From Brachionus manjavacas (Eukaryota > Rotifera > Eurotatoria > Ploima > Brachionidae): a stretch of 64,000 bases of DNA. The position numbers and the translations under genes are program-made. How positions within the stretch are numbered: position 1 is the first letter of the stretch; each line of letters starts with the position of its first letter. This document shows, one piece after another, positions 2,762 to 52,690 of this stretch. The notes under the pieces were generated by a model. It saw only the letters and a program-made list of their open reading frames with translations, had not been told where the DNA came from and ran no database searches. Location: contig JAHQIY010000009.1 of NCBI GenBank assembly GCA_019054805.1, positions 2,604,001-2,668,000 of the forward strand. Reading direction: 5' to 3'.

Positions 2762-4984
2762 TTACGAATTATCTATTTCAATATCATCCTCATCTTTTAG
2801 AGCGGTATCAAGAGCAGCTTGTAAATGAGGCGCAAGTGTCGGACTTTCATAGTCTCTGGTAGTCCTGTTTGGCAAGTCTAGCTCTAGGAACAAAACATTC
2901 TCGCCCATAAACCTCGGATTTAGGCTCTGTGCAGCGCTACGCGCAAAATTAGTCACAGCTCTGTTCAGCTCATAGGCCGAAATCGGTCTCTTGGCCATCT
3001 GTAACTCGTGCTGAGACTTGGTACTCTCTTTTGTAATAACCTTATGCTTCCACTTATCCTCATTGGCATCGAAATACAACCGATTCAGCAACTTTTCCTT
3101 TTCTTCTTTGGGCACAAAATTTTCAATAATCAACTGTCTCAGCTTAATGTCCTTCATTAGATCTGTTTGCGTTTGCTCCAATTCTTGGCGCTCTTTGCTA
3201 TTCGCTTCGTTTAAATCTTTAATCTCTTCTTTCAATTGCTGAAATTTGGCAAAGAATTTCTTCAATTTTTTGGTCTTGTAATCGACCTCTTGTTGTAGAT
3301 TAATGTAGCCCTCATTTTTCTCTATCACATTCTCTTCTTCTTTTTCCAACAACTGCTGTATTTCGCGCTCCTTGCGCTTCTCCTCCGCCAGTATAGCCCG
3401 TTTCTCGGCCAGTCGTCTCTCTTGTTCATTCGTGTGATCCACAATATTCTTTCCACTCAAAAGCTTGCTTTCCATAGCCTTTAGTTTGCTCATCATTTGA
3501 ATTTTAGCCTCCTGTTCGCGTTCCAGCTCTTTTTCCTTATCTTTCATCTCTTTTAAAAGCTTGTCTTTTTCAGAAGCGATCAAATTTTTGTCATTCAAAA
3601 TATTCTGCTTTTCCTGGTCGAGTCTTTCTTGCTCGCGTTTCATCACTTCTTCGACATCTTCTGGATCGTCTTCGAACACTTCTTCGCCATCTTCATTGAC
3701 ACGGCGCGTTTTCTTGCCTTTGCGGGTCTTTTTCGGACCACCCTGTTTGTCCAGAAGGGCTTTGAGCCTTAGAATTTCTTCCTGGAACTGGCGCAGCATG
3801 GCATCTTTGGGATCTTCGTTGATTTTGGGCTTGTTTTTGATGTTCTTGGCTCTGTTGGCGTAGCGAAGTGTAGTCAGTGTTTCTTCGAAGTTGTATGAGG
3901 CCGGGCCTATGGTGGCGACCATCACAGTTTTGGAATTGCCGCCCAGAGAGTCCTGTAGCAGTCGGGTGAGCTTGGAGTCCCGGTAAGGTATGTGTGTGCT
4001 CTTATCATCAATTAAAGCTGAAATTACATTGCCTAGGGCTGATAAGGAAAGATTTATTTTAGTGGCTTCTTTGAGCCGGGTTCCAGAAGCGCCTGTTTTT
4101 GCTTGGCGCTCACTGCCGGCCAAGTCGACTAAATTAAGCTTGCCCACTCTTATGTGCGTCTCGCCATCTGCATACACTTGACTGCACTCAATTGTGATTA
4201 TGAATATGGCGTGCGATCTTGAACTGTGTTCGTTCATGTTGGTGGCGCCCACAGACCTGTTCTGGTTGCCCACGTTCATCACGTGCTCAATTTCGGACTC
4301 GTTCTTGGTTATAAAAGCGGATAGGTCTTTGACATAGACGCCCTTGTCGGGGCTTTCTTTGAGCTCGAACCGCTTCGCTTGGTCCTTGTGTAGCAAGTCG
4401 CGAATTTCTTCTTGGTAAATTTCTAAGTACTGTGCGCGGACCAAGTATTGTTCGTCTGTGCTGCGCGATATGTGCGTGAATATGTGATCGAAGGAATTGG
4501 GTATGACCCCGCGCAGTTCTTTGCTAGAGCGCACCCCTTCCATTGTAAATGTTTTGCCAGTGCCTGTCTGTCCATAGGCGAAAATTGTGCCATTGAAGCC
4601 ATCAAGCACTGATTCGACCAAGGGTCGAAATGTTTCTTCGTACAAATCGGTCTGTTTGGAGCTTAAATAAATTAAAAAAAATTTTTTTTTAATAAAATTC
4701 TTTTATTAATTAAAGATTAGAAGATAAATTTTTACTTCCAGTCGTAAACGGCATCGTAGGTGAATTCTTTTTTGTCTGAAGCGTCAGTTTTTTTTATGGC
4801 AACAGTGCCGCGACGCGTGTCCATTTCCACTATTCGCTCAAAGTTCTCGCTTATTTCCTTCTTGTCCATCGGTCGGCATCTCACAACCACTTTGACACAC
4901 TCGTCTTTGGATAGTTTTTTGGGCTATGCGAAAAAGTTATTTAAAAAAAATTATCTAATCTTAATTTCTGCGAGAGCTTACCAT
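2762..4984 (-). CDS. KIF3B: kinesin-II motor subunit KIF3B (kinesin-like protein)
   Basis: Plus-end-directed microtubule motor of heterotrimeric kinesin-II, which drives anterograde intraflagellar transport. I join three coding exons: 4984-4982 (only the ATG, followed directly by the donor GTAAGC), 4923-4736, and 4661-2762, giving 696 residues. The exon 2/3 junction reads [17 protein letters not shown], exactly the family sequence. Motifs: P-loop GQTGTGKT at about 94-101, switch I NEHSSRSH at about 207-214, switch II DLAGSE at about 243-248, then a charged segment and a long coiled coil containing [20 protein letters not shown]. The tail includes [20 protein letters not shown] and [13 protein letters not shown], which is the KIF3B rather than KIF3A type. 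Both introns have GT-AG ends. It appears complete and functional. A truncated copy lies 30 kb away on the same strand. Confidence 0.93.
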
Positions 4985-5144
4985 TGGGAACCTAATCAAT
5001 CTATTGATCAATTCGATTTGTATTTAAATTTTTTTATTTATTTTCAAGTACAGAATTTGAATTTTATTATTGGAATGGAATTTAAAATATGTGATTAAAT
5101 TTATGAATTAATTATTCAGCTTTTTTTTGTGACTAATTGGAAAA

Positions 5145-6620
5145 AAGACGAAATTTTAGGTCCCTAGCAACCAAAAATTTATTTTTTGAAAAATTTGTAT
5201 TTTTTTAAAATTAATTTATATATTTTAAGAAAACTGTTTTTGAATTGGGATTCTTTTATATCAAACCTTATTAAAGATATTAAAAATAAATTATAAATTT
5301 TTGAACTGAAAAAATATTGATTTATTGAGTACAATTTATTTGCAATTTATTTGAATAAATTATGGATATTAAAATAAATATTGAATTTTAACAGTCTTGA
5401 AAATGTCTAATTCGGGTTCCGAATCTAGCATCAAAACAAATCAGATCAAATCAGATTCCGATTAAAAAAATTATAAGAGCTTCATTTATATCTTATTTTC
5501 TTATTGTATCCACTTATCGTCCTAATTTTTTTAAACCGTAAACTCGTGTTCACGACTCTAAGAGTAAAGCCCAAATCCGACCTTTTTTCTTTAAGATTTA
5601 ATTACATAGTTTCTATGTTACAACAATTAAAATTTAATTTTCAAGAAAATACCCTGAATATGGGATATTTTCTAAAGATAAAGTCCAAATTTAACTTTTA
5701 CTCTAACAAAAAAATTGTCTTTGCTGTCAAAAAAAAATGAAAATTTTAATAATTGTAGAGTTAATTAAAAAATAGAAAAAAAGTCAATTTTTTCATTTTT
5801 TTTGAGAGCAAAGCACCTATTGACGGTGGCTGTTAATATGACTTAGTATGAAAAGAGTTATCATTTTTATACTTTAGGTTAGAGTTCTACTCATTTAACT
5901 CATTTTTTTCATTTTACTCATTTTATACATTTTGCTCATTTTTTTAATTTCACTAATTTACTCATTTTATTTATTTTACTCATTTTGCTCATTTTGCTCA
6001 TTTTTCTCATTTTATTCGTTTTACTCATTTAATACAGTTTGACTTAACCTTTTAAGCTTGGTTTAAAAGAATATAGAAACCATTAGTTGATCTTTGGTGT
6101 CAAAAGGTTGAATAAAATTTTTGAAAAATTCTATAAAATTTGTTATCATTTTTATCAAAAATATTTAAAAAAGATAAAAAAGTCATTGATTATTTTATAA
6201 TAAATGATTCATCAATGATTAAAAATCGATCAAAAGTAACAAAATTGAGCACATTATTTCCCTTCCCTGCTAATTGAAATAAACTTTTCGACTATTCTTT
6301 ATTATACTGATATAAATATACTTAATTAAAGATAATGAGTATCAATCATCTTAAACAAAAAAATTTATTTTCAAAATCTTTTTATTATGGTACTTATGGT
6401 TTGAAACTTTAAGAAGTCTTACTCTGTGTGATTCTAAGTTTGTACTGACACAAATTCTAAATACTGAAAATTATCAGTTACCTTTGTATAGTTAGTTTTT
6501 AGAATTGAAAAACTCTTCGTCAAAAGGACTCTGAAATAAAAGTGCCTAAAATGAGTGCCTTTTTGTTATCATTAATCGGATTTATTTTTAAAGAAAGATG
6601 ACTAGCAAGTAACTTCACTC
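5145..6620. other. AT-rich region upstream of KIF3B
   Basis: I see no gene. It holds the low-complexity tract at 5889-6034 listed separately. The KIF3B promoter must lie at its left end but no recognisable element stands out. Confidence 0.5.
5889..6034. repeat. degenerate short tandem repeat, unit near ACTCATTTT
   Basis: About 145 bases consist of imperfect tandem copies of a 9-10 base unit (ACTCATTTT, GCTCATTTT and variants with longer T runs). It is a minisatellite-like tract without coding potential. Confidence 0.8.
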
Positions 6621-6897
6621 ACATTGAGAGTTTTTTAAATGAAAAAAATCAAAAAAACACTGACAAATTATGTATTTAGTTAAAGACTTTTCTTCAGGTT
6701 TCATATCATAAATACTGAAGTAATAAAAAGATTTTGAAAATTAATTTTTTTGCTTAAGATGAGGCATTTTTACTCAAGTTAAAACTAAACTTTAATATTC
6801 AATTGTAAAGGTTCACATGCTTGAAATTAGTAAAACAATTTTTCTTTTTAAATTCAGAAAAAATTCAAAGAAGCAATGATAAAAATAAGATTTAAAT

Positions 6898-6959
6898 GCG
6901 CCATAACTCTGCCGTAAGCCGGTCCCAAGCCCAGGATGAGAAAAGAGGAGGGTGGTGGC
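6898..6959 (+). ncRNA. twister ribozyme (type P1), upstream member, copy A
   Basis: The core GCCGGTCCCAAGCCC followed by GGATGAGAAAAGAGGAGGG matches the twister class. P1 is formed by CGCCA with UGGUG. The scissile U-A step lies between 6904 and 6905 within CAUAAC. P2 pairs CUCU with AGAG. P4 pairs CCGG with CCAGG around loop UCCCAAGC, and the loop CCC can pair with the GGG of GAGGG (pseudoknot T1). An extra A in the P4 3' strand, absent from the partner ribozyme, may weaken this one. Twister RNAs self-cleave without protein. Identification is by recalled consensus plus pairing; no covariance-model search was possible. Confidence 0.85.
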
Positions 6960-7306
6960 AGCCACACAATGTGGTCTTCTACGAGTCCAAAGAAGAGCTG
7001 TATTACGGGTACATAGATCTACGGGTCTTTGTCCTAGTCTTGTCGTATGAGGTGCCGCTGGCTTCGACCATCACCCAGTATAGAATCTTAACAGAGCAAG
7101 AACTTGTTTTACAGCTGACCCTCTTTGGATAGCCGTAACTTTGGAAGCGTTAAAGTTAAGGCATTCTCTCTTAAAGAGATTGTCGCTTGGTTTGTGGTTC
7201 CAAGCTAGTCTAAATAGTTGTCGAGTTCGCAGTCTTTAAGTGCTCGGATGAGTGACGCTGTTTATGATGAACGTCCCACGTGCTTCTTAGGGGAAGACGC
7301 CGTCAT
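6905..7306 (+). ncRNA. 402-nt unit between two twister cleavage sites, copy A
   Basis: If both flanking twister ribozymes cut, transcription of the plus strand would release a 402-nt RNA beginning AAC and ending CAU. The unit is clearly G+C-richer than its surroundings and has local hairpins such as CCACA-CAA-TGTGG (6962-6974) and TCTCT-TAA-AGAGA (7166-7178). A 78-codon ORF begins at 6896, but the same segment is better explained as structured RNA: in copy B one extra G shifts that frame while the ribozyme cores are untouched. The layout resembles hammerhead retrozymes, whose monomers are bounded by ribozymes and circulate as RNA. A retrozyme-like role is inference. Confidence 0.6.
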
Positions 7307-7357
7307 AACTATGCCGTTTGCCGGTCCCAAGCCCGGATGAAAAAATAGGAGGGTGAC
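7302..7357 (+). ncRNA. twister ribozyme (type P1), downstream member, copy A
   Basis: The core reads GCCGGTCCCAAGCCCGGAT, close to the well-studied environmental twister sequence. P1 pairs GUCA with UGAC, the scissile U-A step is at 7306/7307, P2 pairs CUAU with AUAG, P4 is a perfect CCGG/CCGG helix closed by UCCCAAGC, and CCC in that loop faces GGG in GAGGG. Compared with the upstream member, P2 has C-G replaced by A-U and P1 has C-G replaced by U-A, so the helices are kept while the bases change. Confidence 0.88.
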
Positions 7358-7359
7358 TT

Positions 7360-7800
7360 ATCTTTTTTGAAAAATACCATTTTATCTAAAACTTTTTTCT
7401 AAAATCACATGAAACACTGACTCCAAATACAATTTCCAAATATAAACTTAAAATTCATTATTATTTGATCAAATATTAGACAAAATTCCAAATATTGTAA
7501 TTATTATTTGGAATAACAGACACTAAAAAAACTTGTATTGTATTGCTCTAAAAAAACAATAAGTTAAAATCAATTTTCATCGATCAATTTTTTGAGTTTA
7601 GTTTGACTGCCCAATATTTACCCGTAAATACATTATTTAATTTTTTTATATGAGCTCTAACAAACTGAGTTTATAATTGAGCCTTCTCTACACATATTGT
7701 AAATGATTTCGAGTAGAGTAACCGCCTCTCTATCTGGGACAATTAACATACACTATTTACTATTTACTATTTTATAAGCACTTACTATTTTGTTCATTTT
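7360..7800. other. AT-rich segment of the composite repeat
   Basis: I see no coding potential. It includes a short TATTTACT repeat near 7750-7780. The piece 7490-7590 recurs inverted at 26170-26290 and as a lone fragment at 29560-29665. Confidence 0.5.
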
Positions 7801-12416: not shown

Positions 12417-15211
12417 ACAAGAAGACAAATCAATCAACTTTAAGAACAAAACCTCTTAATAATACAAGGTTAGTAATTACACACTGGAATTGTCTTCATT
12501 TACCTAGTAGGGTTCATCTCTTAGCCAATTTTTTAGCCCAAAAATGTCCCGACATTGTTTTGCTCAATGAATTAAAGATAGATTTGAGTGAGGCAAATAT
12601 TTATCTTGACTTTCACAATTATCTGTTCATAACAAAACCACGCAACAAGTATGGAGGTGGTGTAGCTATTTTAATTAAAGAAGGAATTGAATTTATACAA
12701 GATTTTTCTTATGAGGAATTCAATTCCGAACTTCTTTGTATAAAAATGAACTTAGGAAAGAAAAGTGAATTGTTTGTATTTAGTCTATATAATCCACCCA
12801 ATGTGCTTCTGAACCTTGAGTTTTTTAAAACAGTTAATAAAAAGTGTAGGAACTACATCTTGGGTGGTGATCTAAACGCTAGAACAAAGCAAATAGGCTG
12901 CGTTAGGGAAAATGAAAATGGCATAATATTGGAAAGAATAATCAATGAGTTAGACTTTTCAGTAATCAATGATAAGCGTCCTACTCTCAATATTTTTAAT
13001 AAGAATTACTTTGAAATTCTTGACCTTTTTTTAGTTTCATCTTCTTTAATTGACAAAATAACCGACTTTAGTGTCTAAAATAGTCAAGACATGACTAGTG
13101 ACCATTTTCCAATCGAAGCATCGATTGATATGGGCTATCTAGTAGAAAACAAATCAGCAGCTAAAAGGTTTAACTATAAGAAAGAAAACTGGCAATTATT
13201 CAGCGAGATTTTAAATTCTCAAATAGTGAATATCACTGAAAGTTCCCTCACAATAGACCAACTAAATGATAAAATTACAGAAAAAATTATTTCTGCTTCA
13301 CATAAAAGCATTCCATATCTTTCTAAGAAAATCTACAAAAAGAGTCTTTCACCGAACATTGTTAATTTGATCAAAGAACGTAGGAAAGTAAGAAGAAACT
13401 TCCAGAAAACTCGCTGTCAAAAGGTAAAACAAAAATTTAATCAACTTACATCTGAGTTAAAGGCCTCTTTAAAAAAATTTTGGAATCAAAATTGGTTTGA
13501 TTTTATTGAGAGGATGGGAAAAAACCCACTGACAAGTAGACCTTTTTGGAAAAAAATAAATAAATTTAGAACAAAAAAAGGATCAAATTTAATTCCTAAT
13601 TTGATTTTAAATGAAAATGAATTCAAAACTAATGAAGAAAAGGGAAAATGCTTCGGAGAACTCTTATCTTCAATATTTAGTCCTAATTCTGATTTAATTG
13701 ATTCTGAGAATTTATCGAAATACTAAATTCTAACTCTGATTTCTTTAGAAATTATAACCAATCTAATTTTAATTATCCAATTTGCTTAAACGAATCAATT
13801 ATGGCTTTAAAAAGATTGAAAAATGAAGCGGCATCAGGACCTGACCAAATTCATAATTTAATGTTAAAAAACTTACCTAGAAATTCATTAATAGAAATCA
13901 TAGAACTTTTTAATTTATCCCTTAGAGAAGGTAGAGTCCCTAAAGCGTGGAAAATATCGAACATTACTATGATTCAAAAAAAAGCCTCTTCTGTACAAGA
14001 TCCTTTAAATTATAGACCAATTAGTATAACGAGTTGTTTAGGAAAGTTACTGGAACGCATAGTTTATTCAAGAATATACAATTTTTTGGAACAAAATTCA
14101 CTCCTTATCCAGGAGCAATCTGGAATTAGGAAACACCGGCGAACAGCAGATAATCTTTTCTTTTTAATTCAAAAAATTGTGGAATCATTTAATAGAAAAA
14201 AAAGAGTTAGCGGCCTTTTTTTTGACATTTCTAAAGCCTTTGATAGGGTTTGGCATGAAGGTTTACTTTTTAAATTGATTAAAATAAATCCACCTCATTA
14301 CTTGACTAACTGGATTAGATCCTTTTTAAGGTAAATGTGAATGACCATCTGAGCGAAGAATATCAAATAACTGCAGGTGTTCCTCAAGGCTCAGTAATTA
14401 TTCCTCTTTTATTTAATTTATATATTAATGACATCCCCAGAAGAAAAAAAACAAATAATGAATACTCTCTGCTTTTCGCAGATGATCTTATTACATTCTT
14501 CATTAATAACAAAAAGGGGAACCTAGAAAATAAGATAAATAAATACACCAACGAATTAGAACAATGGCTTATTAAGTGGAAAATGAAGATATCAGTTGAA
14601 AAGTCGTGTTCAGCATTCTTATCTAAGTACAAAAAAGAGAGTGACGATCTTAATTCAAAAATTTATCGAAACAGAATACTAAGCCTAAAAGAAATCAAGT
14701 TTCTTGGTATTAAATTTGATTCTAAGTTAAATTTAAAATAGCAGTTGACGAAATTAAAGAACGCTGCAATAAAAGGCTAAATATTATTAAGATATTGTCA
14801 AACAAAAAATGCGGTCTCAATCAAAACACACTAGGAAATTTATATAAATCTTTAGTCGGATCGTTTTTAGACTATTCTTTTCCTTGCTTAAATTCATTTT
14901 CAGAAAATAATATCAAAAAACTACAAGCAATTCAGAATACAGCAGTCAGATCTATTCTTAAGTTAAAATATGATACTCCCTCCAACATCGTGCAACATGA
15001 AGCTTTTAATAAACTAAAATTACTAACAGTCTCGAATCGTCTTTTTGAGTTGAGCGAGAAATATGTTGGGATAGGACTGAGTCATTCTATTCCATTGGTT
15101 GAAAGACTGGTGAAAGAATACAAAGAAGGTTTCGAATCAAGATATATTGAATACCCAACTCCATTGTGTAATTGCTACCTTACTATTTCTTCTTTTTTTC
15201 CTGAAACTTGA
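12413..15211 (+). pseudogene. Jockey-like LINE ORF2: endonuclease and reverse transcriptase, broken
   Basis: Five consecutive plus-strand ORF pieces (12413-13078, 13091-13726, 13801-14334, 14337-14741, 14795-15211) make up one LINE polyprotein. The first is an apurinic-type endonuclease (WNCLHLPSR, LLNELKI, YILGGDLNAR, and TSDHFPIE from the next piece). The reverse transcriptase follows (ASGPDQIHN, NYRPISITSCLGKLLERIV, FFDISKAFDRVWHEGL, GVPQGSVIIPLLFN, FADDL at 14475-14489), then the C-terminal connection region. Catalytic FADD is intact, but at least four stops or shifts make the copy dead. It inserted into the MULE. Confidence 0.85.
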
Positions 15212-17105: not shown

Positions 17106-17365
17106 ATCATGATCATCATGATCAAAAACGATGAATTCTTAAATACATTTATTCACACAAATATCGACTTCAACTGGTTTAGTAAAACCAGAAGCCCATG
17201 AAATAATACCTTCAGCGGTTTTAATTCTCTTATATGTCCATAATATTTCGAATTTATTACTAATTGGGGTCATGTCATAGTACCCTTGGTATTCACAGTT
17301 TTAAATGGAATTGGATCATACAGCGTGTCGGATTCACTTGATTTTTCCATTTCAACAAAACTTGT
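17106..17365 (-). pseudogene. Ty3/gypsy deletion derivative: gag start joined to protease end
   Basis: On the minus strand, 17361-17290 encodes MEKSSESDTLYDPIPFKTVN, the same beginning as at 23482-23545. It then jumps to sequence matching the region just after the protease active site of the plus-strand gypsy element (28180-28345). The intervening gag is deleted. The junction to the chitinase fragment follows at about 17105. Confidence 0.6.
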
Positions 17366-18677
17366 TAACCAATATTAAACAAAGACTTTCTAGCCTTGAG
17401 TCTTGTTATTACCTGACTTCATTTAGCTTTGGCTTTCGAGTCATTAATTTTGGCTTTAATCATTAAATCATTATCATTAAATCTCTTTCACTAACTTTAG
17501 GCAACTTTGAAGTCTTTAAATGGATTAAAACATTTTTATCCAACAAAAGGTACTATGATAGACTACATGCATTCAATTTTAAAGGGAATTAATCCGCAAA
17601 TTAGCAGAATATTGGTTTGATTAAAAAATGTCAAAATTAAAAGTTTTCTCTTAGACCTCATCTCCTTAATATAAATAGAAAGTGCAAGAAATCAGAGTCC
17701 CTCAATTTTTTCTTAGAGATCCACGCGAAATTAATTATATCAAACATTGAAAAGCGAACGAATATCTTGCATCTGTTTTATGCTTTGCCCTTCCGATATG
17801 AAATAGATTAGAAATAAAGGAAGCCTAAATGAAGTTTCTTGTTTTCAGTATGAAAATTTTAATAGGATTCTGATTCAATTTTGTAAAGTTCTGTTGGAAT
17901 TGAAATAATACATTCATTTAATTTAATCAAGTGTATTACAAATTATAAATAACGAAATCATTCATCAAGATTTGCAATATAAGGATTCGTATTTAAAATT
18001 GAAAAATAAAAAAAATGCCTAATGAACATTATTAGATTTGTAACATAATATCAAAAAAAGAAATATTGTCTTTTTTGCATCTTTATTTTATAGCAGACAC
18101 AGAGATAAAAAACAAAAGTTTCAAAAAAGCTTTCAATTAAATAAACATTTTATTGTGATTTATTTTATAAGTAATAAGTAAATGGATTTGATTGAAGAAT
18201 TAGCAGTGTTTGCCAAGAACCAACAACTTCGTGGAAGCTTGGCACAACGCTTTTTCAGTTAGTTAAATTTTAATTAATTCAATTTTATTTTATTGAATTG
18301 ATAATTTTTCTAATAATTACGAGTATGTTGAATAAACATCCGTTGTTCTATTCGTTGGTATATTCGCTAATAAAGGAATAAAAAAAAACAGAAAATGAAC
18401 TTGTTAGATTAAAAACAGGAGTAATTTATAGAAGAAAGCCAAAATATTTATTGCTAGACGAACGTATCCAAAATATAATCAAAGAATATGATTCGTCCGA
18501 TAAAGAAAAAACTTTAATTAGTTTATGTTTACTTTTAAAATATTAATATTAGGGATGATTTTTTTGATTTTTATGATTTTTTTTGGATTTTTATTTAAAT
18601 TGAGTAAAAAAATAAATTAGCTATTTTAATTTAATTAATTTTTGTTTATAGCTATTTTTAATTGGCATTTGGCTATT
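17288..18677 (+). repeat. left arm of a 1.4 kb inverted repeat
   Basis: This arm is nearly identical to the reverse complement of 22143-23545; paired coordinates sum to about 40833 along the whole length. It contains a short open stretch reading MDLIEELAVFAKNQQLRG on the plus strand (18183 on) and another reading ENELVRLKTGVIYRRKPKYL (about 18390-18530), separated by AT-rich sequence. I do not recognise these proteins; they could be exons of a transposon-encoded gene. Confidence 0.85.
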
Positions 18678-19002: not shown

Positions 19003-19388
19003 ATGGATTCGATTGAAGAATTAGCAGTGTTTGCCAAGAACCAACAACTTCGTGGAAGCTTGTTGAAAACCAGTTGTTTATCAATTCAGTTTTTAAATGT
19101 GTTGGTAATAGTTACGCATCTGGTCGCTGCATCGAGGGCATTCCAGTCACCTGCAGTCCTGTTCGTGAGGAAGTTGGTGCGTGCCTCGCAGTTGCGAACC
19201 AACTGGCGCTCAATTGCACGATGACAAGTTCTGGTGTTCCCTGCTGGACAATCGAGGCCATCAGACGCCAGCCTTTGAACTCCGTTAATGAAGCATACTT
19301 AGTCGTAGTGAACAATTAGAATATATAAATAAAGTTGTCACACGAACAAGTAAGCCAGCAAAGAAGTTGAGCAACTCTAAGTTTTACC
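19003..19388 (-). pseudogene. inverted copy of LINE 3' coding end plus gypsy sliver
   Basis: Positions 19072-19388 are the reverse complement of 24632-24948, so on the minus strand they carry the same LINE C-terminal block (NFLTNRTAGDWNALDAATR) and a few gypsy codons. Positions 19003-19063 repeat the start of the MDLIEELAVF-type segment of 18183 and join the LINE piece at an AAGCTT string. Long plus-strand ORFs here are shadows. Confidence 0.6.
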
Positions 19389-19533
19389 TATTATATTAGG
19401 CATTTTTACTCAAGTTAAAACTAAACTTTAATATTCAGTTGTAAAGGTTCACATGCTTGAAATTAGTAAAACAATTTTTCTTTTTAAATTCAGAAAAAAT
19501 TCAAAGAAGCAATGATAAAAATAAGATTTAAAT

Positions 19534-19595
19534 GCGCCATAACTCTGCCGTAAGCCGGTCCCAAGCCCAGGATGAGAAAAGAGGAGGGTGGTGGC
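19534..19595 (+). ncRNA. twister ribozyme (type P1), upstream member, copy B
   Basis: Same sequence as 6898-6959, including the extra A in P4. The predicted cleavage lies between 19540 and 19541. Confidence 0.85.
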
Positions 19596-19943
19596 AGCCA
19601 CACAATGTGGTCTTCTACGAGTCCAAAGAAGAGCTGTATTACGGGTACATAGATCTACGGGTCTTTGTCCTAGTCTTGTCGTATGAGGGTGCCGCTGGCT
19701 TCGACCATCACCCAGTATAGAATCTTAACAGAGCAAGAACTTGTTTTACAGCTGACCCTCTTTGGATAGCCGTAACTTTGGAAGCGTTAAAGTTAAGGCA
19801 TTCTCTCTTAAAGAGATTGTCGCTTGGTTTGTGGTTCCAAGCTAGTCTAAATAGTTGTCGAGTTCGCAGTCTTTAAGTGCTCGGATGAGTGACGCTGTTT
19901 ATGATGAACGTCCCACGTGCTTCTTAGGGGAAGACGCCGTCAT
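19541..19943 (+). ncRNA. 403-nt unit between two twister cleavage sites, copy B
   Basis: Differs from copy A chiefly by one inserted G (GAGGGTGCCG instead of GAGGTGCCG), which breaks the open frame of copy A but leaves the ribozymes intact. Confidence 0.6.
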
Positions 19944-19994
19944 AACTATGCCGTTTGCCGGTCCCAAGCCCGGATGAAAAAATAGGAGGGTGAC
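19939..19994 (+). ncRNA. twister ribozyme (type P1), downstream member, copy B
   Basis: Same as 7302-7357: P1 GUCA/UGAC, P2 CUAU/AUAG, P4 CCGG/CCGG. Predicted cleavage between 19943 and 19944. Confidence 0.88.
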
Positions 19995-20446
19995 TTATCT
20001 TTTTTGAAAAATACCATTTTATCTAAAACTTTTTTCTAAAATCACATGAAACACTGACTCCAAATACAATTTCCAAATATAAACTTAAAATTCATTATTA
20101 TTTGATCAAATATTAGACAAAATTCCAAATATTGTAATTATTATTTGGAATAACAGACACTAAAAAAACTTGTATTGTATTGCTCTAAAAAAACAATAAG
20201 TTAAAATCAATTTTCATCGATCAATTTTTTGAGTTTAGTTTGACTGCCCAATATTTACCCGTAAATACATTATTTAATTTTTTTATATGAGCTCTAACAA
20301 ACTGAGTTTATAATTGAGCCTTCTCTACACATATTGTAAATGATTTCGAGTAGAGTAACCGCCTCTCTATCTGGGACAATTAACATACACTATTTACTAT
20401 TTACTATTTTATAAGCACTTACTATTTTGTTCATTTTGCTCCACTT

Positions 20447-20981
20447 ATCCAAAAACCCAAACCTGAGACCGTTTCATGTCCTTGCCGCTACTATAATTGA
20501 CGCGCGCATAGAGACTTTCGTCTATTTCTACAATCTTTCCATCCCCTCCAAGCAACAAATTATTTTTGTCCTTTCCAAGACTAGCCAAATGTCTTAAGTG
20601 ATATAAAAGACTTGATACAACTTCTTTAATATTTTTTCTAATAAGTTCATTTGAATCATACTTATAGATTTTGAAATTGTCAATTGGCTAGAACAACATT
20701 TTATCAAGCTTGTAATAATTTTCGGGGATTTTTTAAACTAATGATAAAAAAGACCAATCATATTCTGTTTTGGATCCTCCACAACTCGAACATCTCTAAT
20801 ACAAAAGTGTATTATTTGCATTTTTATTGCGCTTTTGTAACCATGGTGACATCTCTTGATCATATTTTTTACAATTCAAGTTAAGACATTTCCGGACTGA
20901 GAAATGCACAACACCATATTCCAATAGTCTTAAATAAATCATATACTCATCGATGTTTATAATATGTTGTTTAATATCCAT
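20447..20981 (-). pseudogene. Merlin (ISXO2-like) transposase remnant, copy B
   Basis: Same reading as at 7810-8344, with the IVEIDESLYARV block near the low-coordinate end and the same stop codons. The shared lesions show it was already dead when the composite was copied. Confidence 0.7.
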
Positions 20982-21524
20982 TTTGAAAAGTAATAAAAAA
21001 TCTGTTAAAATTTGATTTTCTTCAATTTTGTTGAATAATGACTGTAATCAATTTTTTAAAAAAGATCTTTATAAATTTTAAAATTTCCCATAATTATCAT
21101 CACAAAAATTAATTTAAAAAAATCAACTAATAAAAAATTTTATTTATATTTCAAGAATTAGGGGTGATGTCATCATAACACTAAGAATGTTATAATATAG
21201 TTTTTTCTCGTTATCATTGATTATTTTATAATATTATTTTTGATTACAAAAATAACTTTTTTGTTATCAGACTGTTCACATTAACGGTATGCTGCCCGTT
21301 GATAACATTTAGTGTTATCACCTGATAACTAGACCCGATTTTTCTAAGAGATTATCAATGAACTTATTTGTATGGAAAATAGCTTTTGAATTATGAATGA
21401 GAAGGATTGATCAAGCAGGCGATTGTTCTGAATCTATCGATTGATTTAAATAATCATATAAATTTTCGGAAATCTATTAATTAATCTATATCATTATTAA
21501 GTAGATGTCCGAAACTAAATCAGA

Positions 21525-21720
21525 TATTTTTACCTATACCAATTTTATCAGCTTCCGTTGAACGTACATTTTCATTTCTAAAAAGAATTTAGACAAGGGA
21601 TTAGAAACTTAATATCACAAGAACGTCTTTCTAGTTTAGCGATTTTAAATATTGAAAAAAAAATAGAAATAATAGAAAGACTTGTTTCAACTAAATGCTT
21701 TATAATTTTTAATATCATCT
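21525..21720 (+). pseudogene. hAT transposase C-terminal remnant, copy B
   Basis: Plus-strand sequence for FLPIPILSASVERTFS and SQERLSSLAILNIEKK, as in copy A, followed by the element's 3' end. Confidence 0.65.
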
Positions 21721-22142: not shown

Positions 22143-23545
22143 AAATAGCTAAATGCCAATTAAAAATAGCTATAAAAAAATAGCTATAAACAAAAATTAA
22201 TTAAATTAAAATAGCTAATTTATTTTTTTACTCAATTTAAATAAAAATCCAAAAAAAATCATAAAAATCAAAAAAATCATCCCTAATATTAATATTTTAA
22301 AAGTAAACATAAACTAATTAAAGTTTTTTCTTTATCGGACGAATCATATTCTTTGATTATATTTTGGATACGTTCGTCTAGCAATAAATATTTTGGCTTT
22401 CTTCTATAAATTACTCCTGTTTTTAATCTAACAAGTTCATTTTCTGTTTTTTTTTATTCCTTTATTAGCGAATATACCAACGAATAGAACAACGGATGTT
22501 TATTCAACATACTCGTAATTATTAGAAAAATTATCAATTCAATAAAATAAAATTGAATTAATTAAAATTTAACTAACTGAAAAAGCGTTGTGCCAAGCTT
22601 CCACGAAGTTGTTGGTTCTTGGCAAACACTGCTAATTCTTCAATCGAATCCATTTACTTATTACTTATAAAATAAATCACAATAAAATGTTTATTTAATT
22701 GAAAGCTTTTTTGAAACTTTTGTTTTTTATCTCTGTGTCTGCTATAAAATAAAGATGCAAAAAAGACAATATTTCTTTTTGATATTATGTTACAAATCTA
22801 ATAATGTTCATTAGGCATTTTTTTTATTTTTCAATTTTAAATACGAATCCTTATATTGCAAATCTTGATGAATGATTTCGTTATTTATAATTTGTAATAC
22901 ACTTGATTAAATTAAATGAATGTATTATTTCAATTCCAACAGAACTTTACAAAATTGAATCAGAATCCTATTAAAATTTTCATACTGAAAACAAGAAACT
23001 TCATTTAGGCTTCCTTTATTTCTAATCTATTTCATATCGGAAGGGCAAAGCATAAAACAGATGCAAGATATTCGTTCGCTTTTCAATGTTTGATATAATT
23101 AATTTCGCGTGGATCTCTAAGAAAAAATTGAGGGACTCTGATTTCTTGCACTTTCTATTTATATTAAGGAGATGAGGTCTAAGAGAAAACTTTTAATTTT
23201 GACATTTTTTAATCAAACCAATATTCTGCTAATTTGCGGATTAATTCCCTTTAAAATTGAATGCATGTAGTCTATCATAGTACCTTTTGTTGGATAAAAA
23301 TGTTTTAATCCATTTAAAGACTTCAAAGTTGCCTAAAGTTAGTGAAAGAGATTTAATGATAATGATTTAATGATTAAAGCCAAAATTAATGACTCGAAAG
23401 CCAAAGCTAAATGAAGTCAGGTAATAACAAGACTCAAGGCTAGAAAGTCTTTGTTTAATATTGGTTAACAAGTTTTGTTGAAATGGAAAAATCAAGTGAA
23501 TCCGACACGCTGTATGATCCAATTCCATTTAAAACTGTGAATACC
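22143..23545 (-). repeat. right arm of the 1.4 kb inverted repeat
   Basis: Reverse complement of 17288-18677. It has a small extra duplication of an AAATAGCTATAAA-like unit near 22163-22190. The spacer between the arms is about 3.5 kb and contains copy B of the twister composite. Confidence 0.85.
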
Positions 23546-23963
23546 ATTTTTTAAACTTATTTAAAAAAAGAGGCAATCATAAAGCCATATGTTAGTATAA
23601 ACACAGATAAGAAATCTAATAAACCGTTGTTAGGTAATTGGTTATTAACTGAGACTAGGTTAAAATTGATAGTGATGTAAAAACTGAGCACGGTGACTGT
23701 TCATCTCGGACAACGTCAGAACCTGTTGACGTTGTCCAAGATGAAAGTGCTCAAAGATCAAATAACACCGAAAGTTTTAATACTGTTGAAGAAGCTGATT
23801 GCGCGGACACATTAGAAGAAGCCTTAAATGAGGAAGAGGAGAGTGGAGATATGACTTATGATGAAGACGTGGATAAAGGTGAAGATGAGATGGGAGAAAT
23901 TCAGGCAAGGCCGCAAAGAACCAAGAAAAAACCGAATAGATATAGAAATCCAGTCCCACATTA
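23482..23963 (+). pseudogene. Ty3/gypsy deletion derivative: gag start and integrase C-terminal tail
   Basis: ATG at 23482 opens MEKSSESDTLYDPIPFKTVN. After a deletion and stops, an acidic stretch (EEALNEEEESGDMTYDED) leads to ARPQRTKKKPNRYRNPVPH and a stop at 23961-23963. A basic PxRxxRxxxPPxRY-like tail is typical of the end of gypsy integrases. Gag, protease, reverse transcriptase and the integrase core are absent, so this is an internally deleted copy. Confidence 0.6.
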
Positions 23964-24288: not shown

Positions 24289-24660
24289 TCAACAAACAAA
24301 CCAAATATTTTTCAGTTTTTGGCACCATTCTAATCTATTAAAATTTTTGTCTAGAGTTGGTGTTACATGTCGTTCTCTCAGAATTGCTTGATTTGGTAGC
24401 CCTTCGTCAGTGCAAATTCTGATACTTTCAGGCTGATTTAGCTTTTGAACAATTACTTTCGGGAAACCCATGGAGTTGGACCTTTAATTGGCTCAATTAT
24501 ATCAGTATTAAGCTTGTACTGGATTTCATTTTCAACAGTTTCTCTTAAGTGAAACGGTACACAAAAGCGATTTTCGTGAAAGTATTCATAGCCACACAGA
24601 CCACAAGTTTGTTCCTTCGGATGTTTTTTTTGGTAAAACTTAGAGTTGCTCAACTTCTTT
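24289..24660 (-). pseudogene. Ty3/gypsy fragment: gag zinc knuckle fused to reverse-transcriptase start
   Basis: On the minus strand, KKHPKEQTCGLCGYEYFHEN (a zinc-knuckle beginning) is joined directly to the reverse-transcriptase entry segment FHLRETVENEIQYKLNTDII, then PTPWVS. After a frameshift it continues LNQPESIRICTDEGLPNQAI and LRERHVTPTLD. The protease is deleted and the catalytic YxDD is not reached. It belongs to a different gypsy lineage from the element at 27.6-29.5 kb. Confidence 0.7.
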
Positions 24661-24699
24661 GCTGGCTTACTTGTTCGTGTGACAACTTTATTTATATAT

Positions 24700-25030
24700 T
24701 CTAATTGTTCACTACGACTAAGTATGCTTCATTAACGGAGTTCAAAGGCTGGCGTCTGATGGCCTCGATTGTCCAGCAGGGAACACCAGAACTTGTCATC
24801 GTGCAATTGAGCGCCAGTTGGTTCGCAACTGCGAGGCACGCACCAACTTCCTCACGAACAGGACTGCAGGTGACTGGAATGCCCTCGATGCAGCGACCAG
24901 ATGCGTAACTATTACCAACACATTTAAAAACTGAATTGATAAACAACTGGGTTTCCACTATATAAGACAACATCCACCAAAATCAATTTACACACATTAT
25001 AAGCACATGAAAAAAAAAAAAAAATAAAAA
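24700..25030 (+). pseudogene. LINE 3' coding end with poly-A tail
   Basis: The plus strand encodes AIERQLVRNCEARTNFLTNR followed by TAGDWNALDAATRC, the C-terminal block typical of non-LTR reverse transcriptases (NFFxNRVxxxWNxLP). A short 3' end and an A-run follow at about 25009-25024. It is a 5'-truncated insertion lying between gag (25220-25500) and the zinc-knuckle piece of the minus-strand gypsy remnant. The minus-strand 90-codon ORF here is a shadow. Confidence 0.65.
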
Positions 25031-26160: not shown

Positions 26161-26425
26161 ATAAAATATTGGGCAGTCAAACTAAACTCAAAAAATTGAT
26201 CGATGAAAATTGATTTTAACTTATTGTTTTTTTAGAGCAATACAATACAAGTTTTTTTAGTGTCTGTTATTCCAAATAATAATTACAATATTTGGAATTT
26301 TGTCTAATATTTGATCAAATAATAATGAATTTTAAGTTTATATTTGGAAATTGTATTTGGAGTCAGTGTTTCATGTGATTTTAGAAAAAAGTTTTAGATA
26401 AAATGGTATTTTTCAAAAAAGATAA

Positions 26426-26481
26426 GTCACCCTCCTATTTTTTCATCCGGGCTTGGGACCGGCAAACGGCATAGTTATGAC
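26426..26481 (-). ncRNA. twister ribozyme (type P1), downstream member, copy C
   Basis: Minus-strand equivalent of 7302-7357 with identical core and stems. Predicted cleavage between 26477 and 26476. Confidence 0.88.
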
Positions 26482-26879
26482 GGCGTCTTCCCCTAAGAAG
26501 CACGTGGGACGTTCATCATAAACAGCGTCACTCATCCGAGCACTTAAAGACTGCGAACTCGACAACTATTTAGACTAGCTTGGAACCACAAACCAAGCGA
26601 CAATCTCTTTAAGAGAGAATGCCTTAACTTTAACGCTTCCAAAGTTACGGCTATCCAAAGAGGGTCAGCTGTAAAACAAGTTCTTGCTCTGTTAAGATTC
26701 TATACTGGGTGATGGTCGAAGCCAGCGGCACCCTCATACGACAAGACTAGGACAAAGACCCGTAGATCTATGTACCCGTAATACAGCTCTTCTTTGGACT
26801 CGTAGAAGACCACATTGTGTGGCTGCCACCACCCTCCTCTTTTCTCATCCTGGGCTTGGGACCGGCTTACGGCAGAGTT
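26477..26879 (-). ncRNA. 403-nt unit between two twister cleavage sites, copy C
   Basis: Same unit as copies A and B read on the minus strand; no lesion in either ribozyme core relative to them. Confidence 0.6.
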
Positions 26880-26886
26880 ATGGCGC
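26825..26886 (-). ncRNA. twister ribozyme (type P1), upstream member, copy C
   Basis: Minus-strand equivalent of 6898-6959 with the same extra A in P4. Predicted cleavage between 26880 and 26879. Confidence 0.85.
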
Positions 26887-27302
26887 ATTTAAATCTTATT
26901 TTTATCATTGCTTCTTTGAATTTTTTCTGAATTTAAAAAGAAAAATTGTTTTACTAATTTCAAGCATGTGAACCTTTACAACTGAATATTAAAGTTTAGT
27001 TTTAACTTGAGTTAAAATGCCTCATCTTAATCAAAAAAATTAATTTTCAATATCTTTTAATTATTCAGGACTTGTGGTATGAAAATTGAAGAAAAGTCTT
27101 AAACTAAATACATAATTTGTCAGTTTTTTTTTGATTTTTTACATTTAAAAAACTCTCAATTTGTTGTCTCTTTATGTCGATTTAATTCCAATTACAAATA
27201 TTTACAAAATACTTTTTTAAAATGATGAGTTTAATTATAACATTTAAGTAAATTGTAAATAGAACGTAAAAGAAATATTAATAGAAAATAACTTAATTAA
27301 AT

Positions 27303-27599: not shown

Positions 27600-29495
27600 T
27601 AAGTAAATTTTTAACCCTTACTAATAAAACATCATTCATAGCAGAAGATGAAAAGATGTTTCACTTAATTCAAGGATTAAAAGAATCTACATAAAATGAA
27701 CTCGTATGTCGTATTATCTAAAAGTTAAATTCAGCCATTCCCTTAGCTATTCAATTTGAATCTTTTACAAATAGTAAAGTGTTGCTTAAATTAATTATTT
27801 CTAAAATAACAAATCCAAGAATAATGTTTTATTCAAAAAGCAATTCAGATACAATTTAGAAAAGGTTAAAAATAATACACAAACTAAAAATAAATCAGAT
27901 ACTTCTAGAAGGTTTAAAAATTTTTCTTCAGTCGACAATAAAAACCAAAATGAAAAAATTATTTGTTTAAGGTGCAAACGTAAAGGACACTTTGCTGATA
28001 CATGTAGATCAGACCTAAAAAAAATTAATAATGTCTCATGTAACTCTGATGACTTGTAAAGCGATAAAATTTATGTTTTAAATGATCCTAGATTCCTAGC
28101 ATTATTGGTAGAATTGAAGGTATGTCAATGAAGATAGGTTTGGACAGCGGTGCATATCACTCTGTGATGAATCACATGACCCCAATTAGTAATAAATTCG
28201 AAATATTATGTACATATAAGAGAATTAAAACCGCTACAGGAATTATTTCATGGGGCTTCTGGTTTTACTAAACCAGTTGAAGTCGATATTTGTGTGAACA
28301 AATGTATTTAAGAATTCATCGTTTTTGATCATGATGATCATGATGTTCTTCTTAGAATAGATTGGCTCCATAAAACAAGAGCTGGAATTTTTCCATCTCA
28401 TGGTTTAATTGAATTCCCATCGTGTAAGTTGAGTTTTGATAGAGACAAATTGGAGTTAAGCTGTGATGTTTTTGAGGTTTTCACAGCCGATATAGATGAA
28501 TTTCAACAAAAATATGATTATTTTTGGCAAACTTCAGATTTTAAAATGGTACCAAAGGGTGAACTAAATCAATCTCAACAATTGATCTTTAAAGATTTTT
28601 ATAATGAAGCAACCAAGCTATATTCTTCATTAATGATTAATGAATCAACGCCTCCTCTGTATACACATGCATACCGAAAATCGCAAAGTGAAAGGAATTT
28701 CCTCAAAAAAGATTGTGAGAAAATGGTAAACGCAAAAATAATTCAACCATTTAAGTCGCCCTGGTCTTCTCCAGTAATAGTGGTTCCCGAAAAAGATGGC
28801 TCGAAGCGAATCTGTATTGATTATAGAAAATTAAATGAAGTGACTATTACAGAAAAATGGCCTTTACCAAATTGGGACTCAAATTGGTTCACAGTAATTG
28901 ATCTTAAATCTGGTTATTGGCAAATAAAAATGAATGAAAATTTAATCCCATTAAGTGCTTTTACCACGCCCGTTCGAAATTTTGAATTCTTAAGATTACC
29001 TTTTGGTCTAAAGTATGCTCCTACTGATTTTAGCAGAAAAATGAACATTATATTCGGCAAACAAGATTCTGAAGAAATCTATATAGTTAATATTACAATA
29101 CATTTAAAAAGTTTTGGAAATGTACAACAAATATAGAGGTTTCGTTAAAAATTTCTCTATCATTGCACAACCATTATTTAAGCTATGCTCAAAAAATATT
29201 ATATTTGAATGGGACAAGGAATGCGAGGAAACATTTGAAAACTTAAAAATCAAATTATGTTTATATCCAAGACTTAGAATATTTGACCCACAAAATCCTT
29301 GTGTATTGTACGTAGATGCATCTAGCTTCGCTTTAGGAACTGAACTAACGCAAAAAGATGAAAAAGGAAAGGATTTTATTGTTTCATTGGCATCTAAATT
29401 ACTGTCTAAATCAAATAAAATTAAAAAAAAAAAGAAGAAAAACACAAAATTTTTAAATATTTATCTAAAAAATATCTATTTGATAGACCCTTAAC
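27600..29495 (+). pseudogene. Ty3/gypsy retrotransposon remnant: gag, protease, RT, RNase H start
   Basis: Plus-strand pieces appear in canonical order. A gag C-terminus with zinc knuckle CLRCKRKGHFADTC lies at 27965-28006. The aspartic protease has GLDSGAYHSVM near 28140. The reverse transcriptase (28429-29136) has FKSPWSSPVIVVPEKDGSKR, ICIDYRKLN, TVIDLKSGYWQIK and LPFGLKYAP. The RNase H start (29114-29445) has VDASSFALGTELTQKDEKGK. At the position of the catalytic YxDD the sequence reads YIVNI, after which a frameshift and a deletion remove the rest of the palm. No LTR was recognised. The copy is nonfunctional. Its protease segment is closely matched at 17113-17280. Confidence 0.82.
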
Positions 29496-33925: not shown

Positions 33926-35104
33926 TTAAGAGATTGAATGTTCGTTGATTTTGGGCCTGTTTTTGATGTTCTTGGCTCTGTTGGCGTAGCGGAGTGTAGT
34001 CAGTGTTTCTTCGAAATTGCATGATGCCGGGCTTATGGTGGTGACCATCACAGTTTTGGAATTTCCGCCCAGAGAGTCCTGTAGCAATCGTGTGAGCTTG
34101 GAGTCCAGGTAAGGTATGTGCGTGCTCTTATCGTCAATCAAAGCTGAGATTACATTGCCCAAAGCCAAATAGGAACGAGATATTTCATAGGCTTTTTTGA
34201 GTGTGATTCCAGAGGTGGCTGTTTTTATTTGGCGTTCACTCCCAGCCAAGTCGACTAAATTAAGCTTGTCCACTCTTATGTGCGTCTCGCCATCTGCATA
34301 CACTTGACTGCACTCAATTGTGATTATGAATATGGCGTGCGATCTTGAACTGTGTTCGTTCATGTTGGTGGCGCCCGCATACCTGTTCTGGTTGCCCACG
34401 TTCATCACGTGCTCAATTTCAGACTCGTTCTTGGTAATAAAGGCGGAAAGGTCTTTGACATTAACGCCCTTGTCGGGGCTTTCTTTGAGCTCGAACCGCT
34501 TCGCTTGGTCCTTGTGTAGCAAGTCGCGAATTTCTTCTTGGTAAATTTCCAAGTACTGTGCGCGGACTAAGTATTGTTCGTCTGTGCTGCGCGATATGTG
34601 CGTGAATATGTGATCGAAGGAATTGGGTATGACCCCGCGCAGTTCTTTGCTAGAGCGCACCCCTTCCATTGTAAATGTTTTGCCAGTGCCTGTCTGTCCA
34701 TAGGCGAAAATTGTGCCATTGAAGCCATCAAGCACTGATTCGACCAAGGGTCGAAATGTCTCTTCGTACAAATCGGTCTGTTTGGAGCTTAAATAAATTG
34801 AAAAAATTTTTATTAAATTCTTTTATTAATTAAAGATTAGAAGATAAATTTTTACTTCCAGTCGTAAACGGCATCGTAGGTGAATTCTTTTTTGTCTGAA
34901 GCGTCAGTTTTTTTTATGGCAACAGTGCCGCGACGCGTGTCCATTTCCACTATTCGCTCAAAGTTCTCGCTTATTTCCTTCTTGTCCATCGGTCGGCATC
35001 TCACAACCACTTTGACACACTCGTCTTTGGATAGTTTTTTGGGCTATGCGAAAAAGTTATTTAAAAAAAATTATCTAATCTTAATTTCTGTGAGAGCTTA
35101 CCAT
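33926..35104 (-). pseudogene. truncated duplicate of KIF3B (motor domain only)
   Basis: It repeats the KIF3B gene structure: ATG at 35104-35102 before GTAAGC, exon 35043-34856, intron, and exon 34787-33926, giving a predicted protein of about 350 residues that stops with INEHSIS where the parent continues into the neck and stalk. P-loop, switch I NEHSSRSH and DLAGSE remain. The switch II helix has changed from LKEATKIN to LKKAYEIS and IPYRDSKLT to IPYLDSKLT. The lost helix glutamate normally pairs with the switch I arginine, so motor activity is doubtful. The 5' half is almost identical to the parent, introns included, while the 3' part is diverged. It could be a pseudogene or a recently copied headpiece. 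Confidence 0.8.
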
Positions 35105-35439
35105 TGGGAACCTAATCAATCTATTGATCAATTCGATTTGTATTTAAATTTTTTTATTTATTTTCAAGTACAGAATTTGAATTTTTTTTATTGGAATGGA
35201 ATTTAAAATATGTGATTAAATTTATGAATTAATTATTCAGCTTTTTTTTGTGACTAATTGGAAAAACAGACTGGTGAGTAAATACCAAATAGGCTATCAT
35301 ATAATATTCTTTTTTTCCTTTCACGTAAAGTCCAGTGCTTACTACCATTTGAATTTATTTTTATTTGTAAATTTTACTTTTATTTTTACGTATAAGCAAT
35401 TGTCCGATATAGCATTAATAAAAAATTCATCATAACTAA

Positions 35440-48334: not shown

Positions 48335-48599
48335 TAAATTTTGTTCATAAGTAATCTGGCTCTTTTTAGTTCCGAAGTAACTAATTTACAGATACTTGTG
48401 TAATCATTATAAAGATTCATATCCTTCCATTTACATGAACAGTTCCTGTATCTAAGATTTCTTATTCCTAATTAAGATCTTCAGATCATCTTTTATCCAA
48501 GTTTTGAGATACTTTTCTTTTTAGAGCCATCCGTCACTGGAATGAATCGATTACTAGACTCGCTGACATAGAAAATAAACTCATTGTACATTTCCTGAA

Positions 48600-51974: not shown

Positions 51975-52580
51975 TCATAATTTTGAGTCAATAGCAGATA
52001 TAATTTTTTCATATCGACATTTGGAGCATCTTTTCAATTCAGAACCGAACAGTTCATAGCATCTATTCTGATATATATGGTCAGTATTGATGCATTTGAA
52101 TCTTTTTACTTTTAAAACATCATATCTACATCCACTGTACCATTTTGCACATTTCATGCACATTAATTTTCCATAGTGATACCGAACAGTGGAATTCGAC
52201 ATTTCACATCCGACACACTTGCTTCCTTGGGGTGCATCTGGCCACCGACTATTTGTTCTCAAAGGTCGTCCTCGTCTTCCTGTCTTAAATCTCATCCCAA
52301 CTGAAAGACATTTTTTGAAGCGACATTTTCTGCATCCTATCCTAAAGCCTACACAATTGCATCTACCATTGTTGTCGCATACCAGTCCATCTCTTATCGG
52401 ATATGTTCGTTTGAAAAAACTACGACAATTAGTGCAGACATCGGGACCATAAATGGAAGATCTGGCATCGGAATATTCACAAACAGGACAATTATTGGGA
52501 AAAGAAAAGTTTTTTTTTGAAAATGGAAATGGATCGCTTGGAATATCCGCCTGTTCGTCATGATCATCTGAATTTTCCAT
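51975..52580 (-). CDS. protein with two nuclear-receptor-like zinc modules, no ligand-binding domain
   Basis: A complete 201-codon ORF. Residues 31-96 form a nuclear-receptor DNA-binding domain: C31/C34/C49/C52 with the P-box-like CTNCRSFFKR, then C68, C74, C83, C86 and CRKCRFKKCLSVGM. A linker with an AT-hook-like GRRGRPLR (101-108) follows. A second module has C122/C125/C141/C144 (KCVGCEMS, LMCMKCAKW) and C163/C174/C185/C188 ending CSKCRYEK, the same eight-cysteine layout with unusual spacing. Nothing resembling a ligand-binding domain follows. Nuclear-receptor DBDs bind hormone-response elements as transcription factors; this would be a ligand-independent DNA-binding protein. Two-DBD receptors are known in other invertebrates but normally carry a ligand-binding domain. 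Confidence 0.8.
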   Translation of the reverse strand: MENSDDHDEQADIPSDPFPFSKKNFSFPNNCPVCEYSDARSSIYGPDVCTNCRSFFKRTYPIRDGLVCDNNGRCNCVGFRIGCRKCRFKKCLSVGMRFKTGRRGRPLRTNSRWPDAPQGSKCVGCEMSNSTVRYHYGKLMCMKCAKWYSGCRYDVLKVKRFKCINTDHIYQNRCYELFGSELKRCSKCRYEKIISAIDSKL

Positions 52581-52690
52581 TTTTATTTCTTTTACCTTTT
52601 CTGCATCTCTCGATTGTTTTTCTTGATTGTGTACATTTTTTTTTAAAAACTCTTTTTAAAAAAAAGAAATAATATTTTTATTTTTAAAAT

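Follow-up and report, generated by a model that had tools for sequence, protein, structure and literature searches.

What would a rotifer genome do with a few hundred nucleotides of DNA bounded at each end by a self-cleaving twister ribozyme? The question is raised by a 64,000-nt stretch of Brachionus manjavacas DNA (contig JAHQIY010000009.1; hereafter the window), for which an earlier note had reported two tandem twisters on the plus strand and had proposed a twister-based retrozyme. In animals, a layout with a ribozyme at each end is known with the hammerhead. Our analysis points elsewhere: the unit in the window probably belongs to a multicopy family of non-coding RNA genes, in which two twisters would release a unit that RtcB could seal.

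The Rfam Twister-P1 model (RF03160), proposed as a check in the earlier note, matched both motifs in a cmscan search of 1,201 bases, the 5′ copy with 43.8 bits (E = 4.2e-8) and the 3′ copy with 51.4 bits (E = 2.8e-10). In its alignment, cleavage is predicted at the U-A steps 6904/6905 and 7306/7307, exactly where it had been expected, and with these steps the unit is 402 nt long. Both matches stay below the Rfam gathering score (67.2 bits) and are therefore missing from a default Rfam scan of the window; this score is a database threshold and no defining feature of twisters. Both copies carry the features of type P1 twisters, i.e. the conserved core, the U-A cleavage step, stems P1 and P2, and the pseudoknot T2. 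The P3 stem of the Rfam model is lacking in both. According to the account in PMC6154101, this stem is optional: 78% of twisters have it, and it is absent from the crystallised twister of Oryza sativa as well. No hammerhead was matched in the whole window at the gathering score, nor between 6500 and 7700 at E values up to 10. The unit stands out by its GC content (0.478, with 0.225 and 0.282 in the 1-kb flanks) and holds no long reading frame, the longest circular ATG frame comprising 26 codons on the plus strand and 22 on the minus strand.

Table 1. Features of the twister-bounded units and their surroundings (window coordinates)
Feature	Position	Strand	Evidence
Upstream block common to many distant copies, possibly promoter and leader (inferred role)	6728..6897	+	Identity, 11 copies
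5′ twister, type P1, no extended P3	6900..6956	+	RF03160 match; predicted cleavage 6904/6905; covarying P1/P2/T2
402-nt unit, predicted release product	6905..7306	+	Twister cleavage sites
RAGATH-11 domain with closing stem (7143-7150 with 7280-7287)	7140..7300	+	RF03148 match, fold, covariation
3′ twister, type P1, no extended P3	7302..7357	+	RF03160 match; predicted cleavage 7306/7307
Downstream block, weakly shared, T run near start	7358..7457	+	Mean identity 0.625, lowest 0.400 (11 copies)
Second complete unit	19534..19994	+	99.8% identity over 461 columns; within 2.27-kb duplicated block
Third complete unit	26426..26886	- (inverted)	99.8% identity over 461 columns; within 1.0-kb duplicated block

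The earlier note had missed three things: a RAGATH-11 match inside the unit, two further complete units in the window, and the copies elsewhere in the genome. The RAGATH-11 match (RF03148; 7165-7284) covers the whole model with 106.3 bits (E = 1.5e-18; gathering score 79.4), and the second and third units are matched as well in the default Rfam scan. Ten RAGATH-11 sequences (classes A and C as defined below, L092, L104, and sites without twister), each folded alone, gave one overall layout with small differences near the 3′ end and z values of -1.9 to -5.2. This layout comprises, in order, a closing stem, two hairpins (a short one and one of six pairs with the loop UUUGUGGUU), and a long arm, after which comes the conserved strand GAACGUCCCAC. 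GUGG in the loop may pair with a 3′ CCAC. For the closing stem, which lies outside the Rfam model, 14 loci were entered in a scan and 12 gave a row, the class B loci L068 and L071 giving none; a complementary flank run of at least six pairs, with differing sequences, was found in 11 of the 12. The sole class B row, L058, showed five pairs and these out of place, so that the closing stem is seen in classes A and C and not in class B.

When nine RAGATH-11 sequences were compared on a structure derived from L098, 22 pairs had changed on both sides. Cells with such changes numbered 43, compared with 18.1 in shuffles (none of 500 as high), which do not keep the relatedness of the sequences. The signal fell when the structure was slid by 1 to 3 columns, a control in which a structure derived from a single row favours itself. 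RNAalifold, applied to the same nine-sequence alignment, returned 22 pairs, three of them changed on both sides. By this comparative evidence, divergent RAGATH-11 copies hold one fold through compensatory changes. Beyond this genome, two exact RAGATH-11 patterns gave no occurrence in viral contigs, and the second gave none in the genome_contigs collection. A looser pattern found one viral stretch and six genome_contigs stretches, which were treated as chance since none had an Rfam match at E 0.01; a blastn search of phages and plasmids (E 0.1) found nothing.

Near-unit-length copies elsewhere, which the earlier note had expected of such an element, do exist in the genome (114 Mb in 61 contigs). 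At least 41 matches to the 460-base query showed 95% identity or more, the three units of the window included (40 of 520 first-look candidates scored). The 15-base twister core occurs 1,515 times exactly (573 forward, 942 reverse) and the RAGATH-11 core 764 times; neither pattern occurs when written backwards, so that the recurrence of the twister core is no chance event. The ratio of the two cores, 1.98, is that predicted for units of the order twister, RAGATH-11, twister, as a genome total that does not give the layout of individual copies. In covariance-model searches of the genome, all 47 scored RF03148 matches lay above the cut-off (47 of 5,232 candidates scored), and none of 14 control genomes gave one. 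For RF03160, none of the 62 scored matches exceeded the cut-off (62 of 4,087 candidates scored, the twisters of the window being outside the 62), and at E values up to 1 two of the 14 control genomes also gave matches, both below the cut-off.

Two paralogous classes with a body between twisters were found. Class A, to which the window copy belongs, has units of about 402 nt (401-403 nt released in 27 distinct unit sequences) and is dispersed, with clusters on contigs C9, C11, C12, C19, and C27 and one site on C17 (L101). Class B, with units of about 313 nt, is arranged in tandem on C18, C44, and C24, and in a short array on C17. Its layout is alike and its RAGATH-11 domain nearly identical, with a different 5′ half; among the blastn matches listed, the class B locus L082 aligned with class A loci only around RAGATH-11 and into the 3′ twister. 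Each class B repeat contains a pair of twisters at a distance of about 313 nt and, in addition, a spacer of about 159-261 nt; one unit is an unusual 320-nt variant, whose fold was therefore set aside, and the C24 array includes truncated units without RAGATH-11. The arrays are large, extending, among the places listed, on C18 from its first kilobase and again from 189.7 kb on, as well as on C44. As one C18 array begins at the contig end, the true copy number may be higher.

Other sites depart from the paired layout. These comprise (i) class C (L096, L097, and L098), in which the covariance model placed one 3′ twister directly after RAGATH-11, and L103, which by eye resembles class C; (ii) L104, with a degraded twister after RAGATH-11 by eye; (iii) L094 and L095 (no covariance match) and L102 (by eye), with RAGATH-11 and no twister; (iv) L058 on C17, with a class B body and no twister match; (v) L092, with RAGATH-11 above the gathering score and a 3′ twister that gave no match and appears degraded by eye; and (vi) the degenerate L093, L099, and L100, with RAGATH-11 below the gathering score. 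By eye, L058 looks like a secondary twister loss beside L082, the second unit of which has no 3′ twister. L094, L095, and L102 have long and mutually different closing stems; possibly, they are stand-alone RNA genes. Two further loci, L061 (C20) and L072 (C1), carry two diverged twisters, with no RAGATH-11 match at E 1 in 3.1 and 1.6 kb, respectively.

Selection on the twisters was assessed from 61 distinct core contexts, from which 37 distinct twisters were parsed (eight occurrences unparsed). Of the 37, 25 have A-U and 12 have G-C as their first T2 pair; the second is C-G in all except one, where it is broken. Positions in P1 and P2 likewise swap pair types, with some mismatches, and 12 of the 37, every one a class B 3′ twister, have G-A as the P1 pair adjoining the cleavage site. 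Among distinct contexts assigned to a class, cores were intact in 19 of 19 (class A, 5′), 28 of 29 (class A, 3′), 20 of 21 (class B, 5′), and 9 of 19 (class B, 3′, counted intact when both UAA and GAGGG were kept); assignment requires GGYCCCAA and, for the class A 5′ kind, also the cleavage-site bases, so these counts omit losses there and leave out unassigned contexts. The damaged class B 3′ contexts have GAGG only (six), lack UAA (three), or differ otherwise (one). This damaged set counts against the notion that both twisters work in each class B unit. Homopolymer errors in the assembled arrays are a possible source of the damage.

Measured against the window copy over 11 distant copies, class A mean identity was 0.980-0.995 in both ribozymes, the body, and RAGATH-11. 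The 3′ twister, although it lies outside the predicted circle, is 99% alike in class A copies and was retained in all 11 compared. Similarity also reaches upstream, with a mean identity of 0.914 (lowest 0.800) in the 20 bases before the unit (6878-6897) and of 0.699 (lowest 0.453, some copies sharing little) in the 150 bases further up (6728-6877). Directly past 7357 conservation drops from 0.96 to 0.78 in a profile of 39 rows, in which some places were entered twice and one row is class B.

In class B, bodies were 0.917-0.994 alike in all ten comparisons, which leave out the C17 sequence as it has no complete unit. The C24 spacer had identities of 0.275-0.345 to those of the four others, and the spacer of the second C18 array had 0.712-0.722 to those in units of C44 or of the first C18 array (C18a); the second C18 array and C24, for example, share 0.939 in the body and 0.275 in the spacer. 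Between C18a and C44 units, the spacers (0.972-0.994) match at least as well as the bodies do (0.949-0.981), so that the contrast of body and spacer is confined to arrays separated for long enough to diverge. Homogenisation of loci by a reverse-transcribed circle was considered and is not favoured, the outer 3′ twister being just as conserved; by way of a longer linear precursor it would still be feasible. By eye, class A and B upstream sequences shared no element with two U6 and five U2 loci. Four class B units have T runs of 5 to 7 inside the body; such runs would argue against Pol III.

In the RNA gene family that we propose, the gene would be transcribed from the plus strand, and both twisters would cut at their U-A steps, as the covariance matches and covarying pairs suggest. 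Cleavage would then free the 402-nt unit with a 5′-hydroxyl, a 2′,3′-cyclic phosphate, and neither cap nor tail; the hydroxyl and the cyclic phosphate are the ends described for self-cleavage (PMC8216279). RtcB, which is present in this genome, seals such ends, and the unit would most likely become a circle, as in the engineered Tornado system. For the animal hammerhead units covered in PMC7229834, RtcB in vitro gave over 80% circles in one species (about 3% by self-ligation) and about 30% in another (about 1%). The functional part would be the RAGATH-11 domain, a multi-branched RNA with stems kept by compensatory changes, and our guess is that it most likely serves as a stable protein-binding RNA. 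More tentatively, at slightly under even chances, the paired twisters could serve specifically to mature the non-coding RNAs of a host gene family. This would be Tornado's equivalent in nature, with an abundant circle carrying RAGATH-11 as its product and, as for rRNA or snRNA, hundreds of genes encoding it.

The fate of a circle may differ between the classes. Released class A ends can form an in-register P1 of 7 bp in all 27 distinct units, with a model energy lower than that of the precursor P1 stems in each; the 5′ P1 of the precursor has five pairs in 21 of the 27 and three in-register pairs in six. In class B, 13 of 14 units have no in-register P1 across the junction (46 distinct pairs analyzed in all, four of them unassigned and one unparsed). 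On this modelling, a class A circle could open and close again, whereas a class B circle should stay closed. Counting against the proposed gene family are the twister scores below the Rfam threshold, the damaged class B 3′ twisters together with the G-A that this kind mostly has beside its cleavage site, the three-pair 5′ P1 of six class A units, the C18a and C44 spacers that match as well as the bodies, the truncated C24 units, the rebuilt twister that could reopen a class A circle, and the several sites that keep RAGATH-11 without two twisters.

The same sites bear on an alternative in which the twisters merely trim the ends of a linear 402-nt RNA gene product and the circle has no role. L096, L097, L098, and L103, with a single 3′ twister right after RAGATH-11, and L094, L095, and L102, which keep the fold without any twister, indicate that the domain can persist without paired ribozymes. 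We nevertheless regard a linear product as unlikely: with twister and RAGATH-11 counts near two to one, most units appear to keep two ribozymes, and the published animal hammerhead units were circularised by RtcB in vitro (PMC7229834). Less probable still is the retrozyme of the earlier note, a non-autonomous retroelement that inserts by way of a reverse-transcribed circular RNA, even though the size of the ribozyme-bounded unit (402 nt, where a few hundred are expected), the hundreds of copies, the class B tandem arrays, the reverse-transcriptase genes in the window, and the twister with a 7-bp P1 that a class A circle would rebuild all fit it. An insertion templated by a circle should carry neither upstream flank nor outer 3′ twister, yet many distant copies have the DNA upstream of the 5′ ribozyme in common, and the outer twister is kept in all 11 compared and as conserved as the rest. 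Moreover, each copy in the window sits within a longer duplicated block, class B repeats combine two ribozymes with a separate spacer instead of forming one-ribozyme monomers (the animal form as we read it), and no insertion junction was seen in passing. The retrozyme label was therefore not retained as the leading reading; as drawn from sequence comparison, the argument against it is strong and not final, since a longer precursor RNA could carry some flank.

That the locus is a satellite or relic, with inactive twister remnants spread by DNA duplication and conversion, would agree with the local duplicated blocks, the tandem arrays, the damaged class B 3′ twisters, and the degenerate copies L093, L099, and L100. 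Compensatory changes in the stems of both twister and RAGATH-11, and spacers that diverge between arrays while the units stay alike, make this reading very improbable.

The gene family that we favour resembles several known systems in part. Like metazoan type I hammerhead retrozymes as described in PMC7229834, it consists of genomic units bounded by ribozymes, a few hundred bases long and in many cases arranged in tandem; RtcB, which would seal its units, sealed the hammerhead ones into circles in vitro. It differs from that description in having twisters instead of hammerheads, two ribozymes per unit with the spacer outside, a RAGATH-11 domain, and upstream DNA shared by many copies. Plant LTR retrozymes, for which PMC4918200 describes an LTR, a PBS, a PPT, and short TSDs, likewise have an RNA unit delimited by two ribozymes, of another class than here. 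With Tornado (PMC11263348), it shares twister-made ends fit for RtcB; unlike that engineered system as presented there, this is a natural family, in which the released unit would retain the core of the 5′ twister and a twister could arise anew in a class A circle. Compared with RAGATH-11 in Rfam, the domain here has a closing stem outside the model (classes A and C), is bounded by twisters, and occurs in hundreds of copies in one genome.

A literature search of titles and abstracts returned no description of a twister-bounded unit of this kind, and no paper on RAGATH-11 by name. RAGATH stands for RNAs found near genes associated with twister and hammerhead ribozymes, a set of motifs that reportedly stems from a 2015 paper; from the meaning of the name, the link between RAGATH-11 and twister may already be known. 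Twisters in related settings have been mentioned, namely truncated ones at the 5′ ends of RTE retrotransposons (unpublished work cited in a 2020 review, PMC7761336) and 11 in metatranscriptomic contigs with hairpin ribozymes (in the results given in PMC8216279). If the proposed gene family is real, animals make circular or uncapped RNAs by twisters at the scale of a gene family, and such RNAs arise beyond hammerhead retroelements and back-splicing. RAGATH-11 would gain a place in the genome and a fold that includes a closing stem, along with a product whose length and ends are specified and can be tested.

Within the window, all three units are complete and of the order twister, RAGATH-11, twister, with the twister cores of the second and third 403 bases apart. 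Recent local duplications carry them: 6759-9026 matches 19395-21662 (99.7% identity), and 6620-7619 matches 26164-27163 in inverted orientation (98.3%). Further inverted duplications (17287-18659 with 22176-23546 and 19062-19388 with 24632-24958; 99.4-99.8%) lie between the second and third units. Elsewhere, the window contains a kinesin motor gene (2762-5149) and its 95% identical partial copy (33926-35271), reverse-transcriptase reading frames (13708-14334, 28312-29136, and 46580-48385), a C4 zinc finger of the nuclear-receptor kind (51975-52655), a kind specific to animals and so in keeping with an animal genome, and a MULE transposase with a FLYWCH domain (61315-62844).
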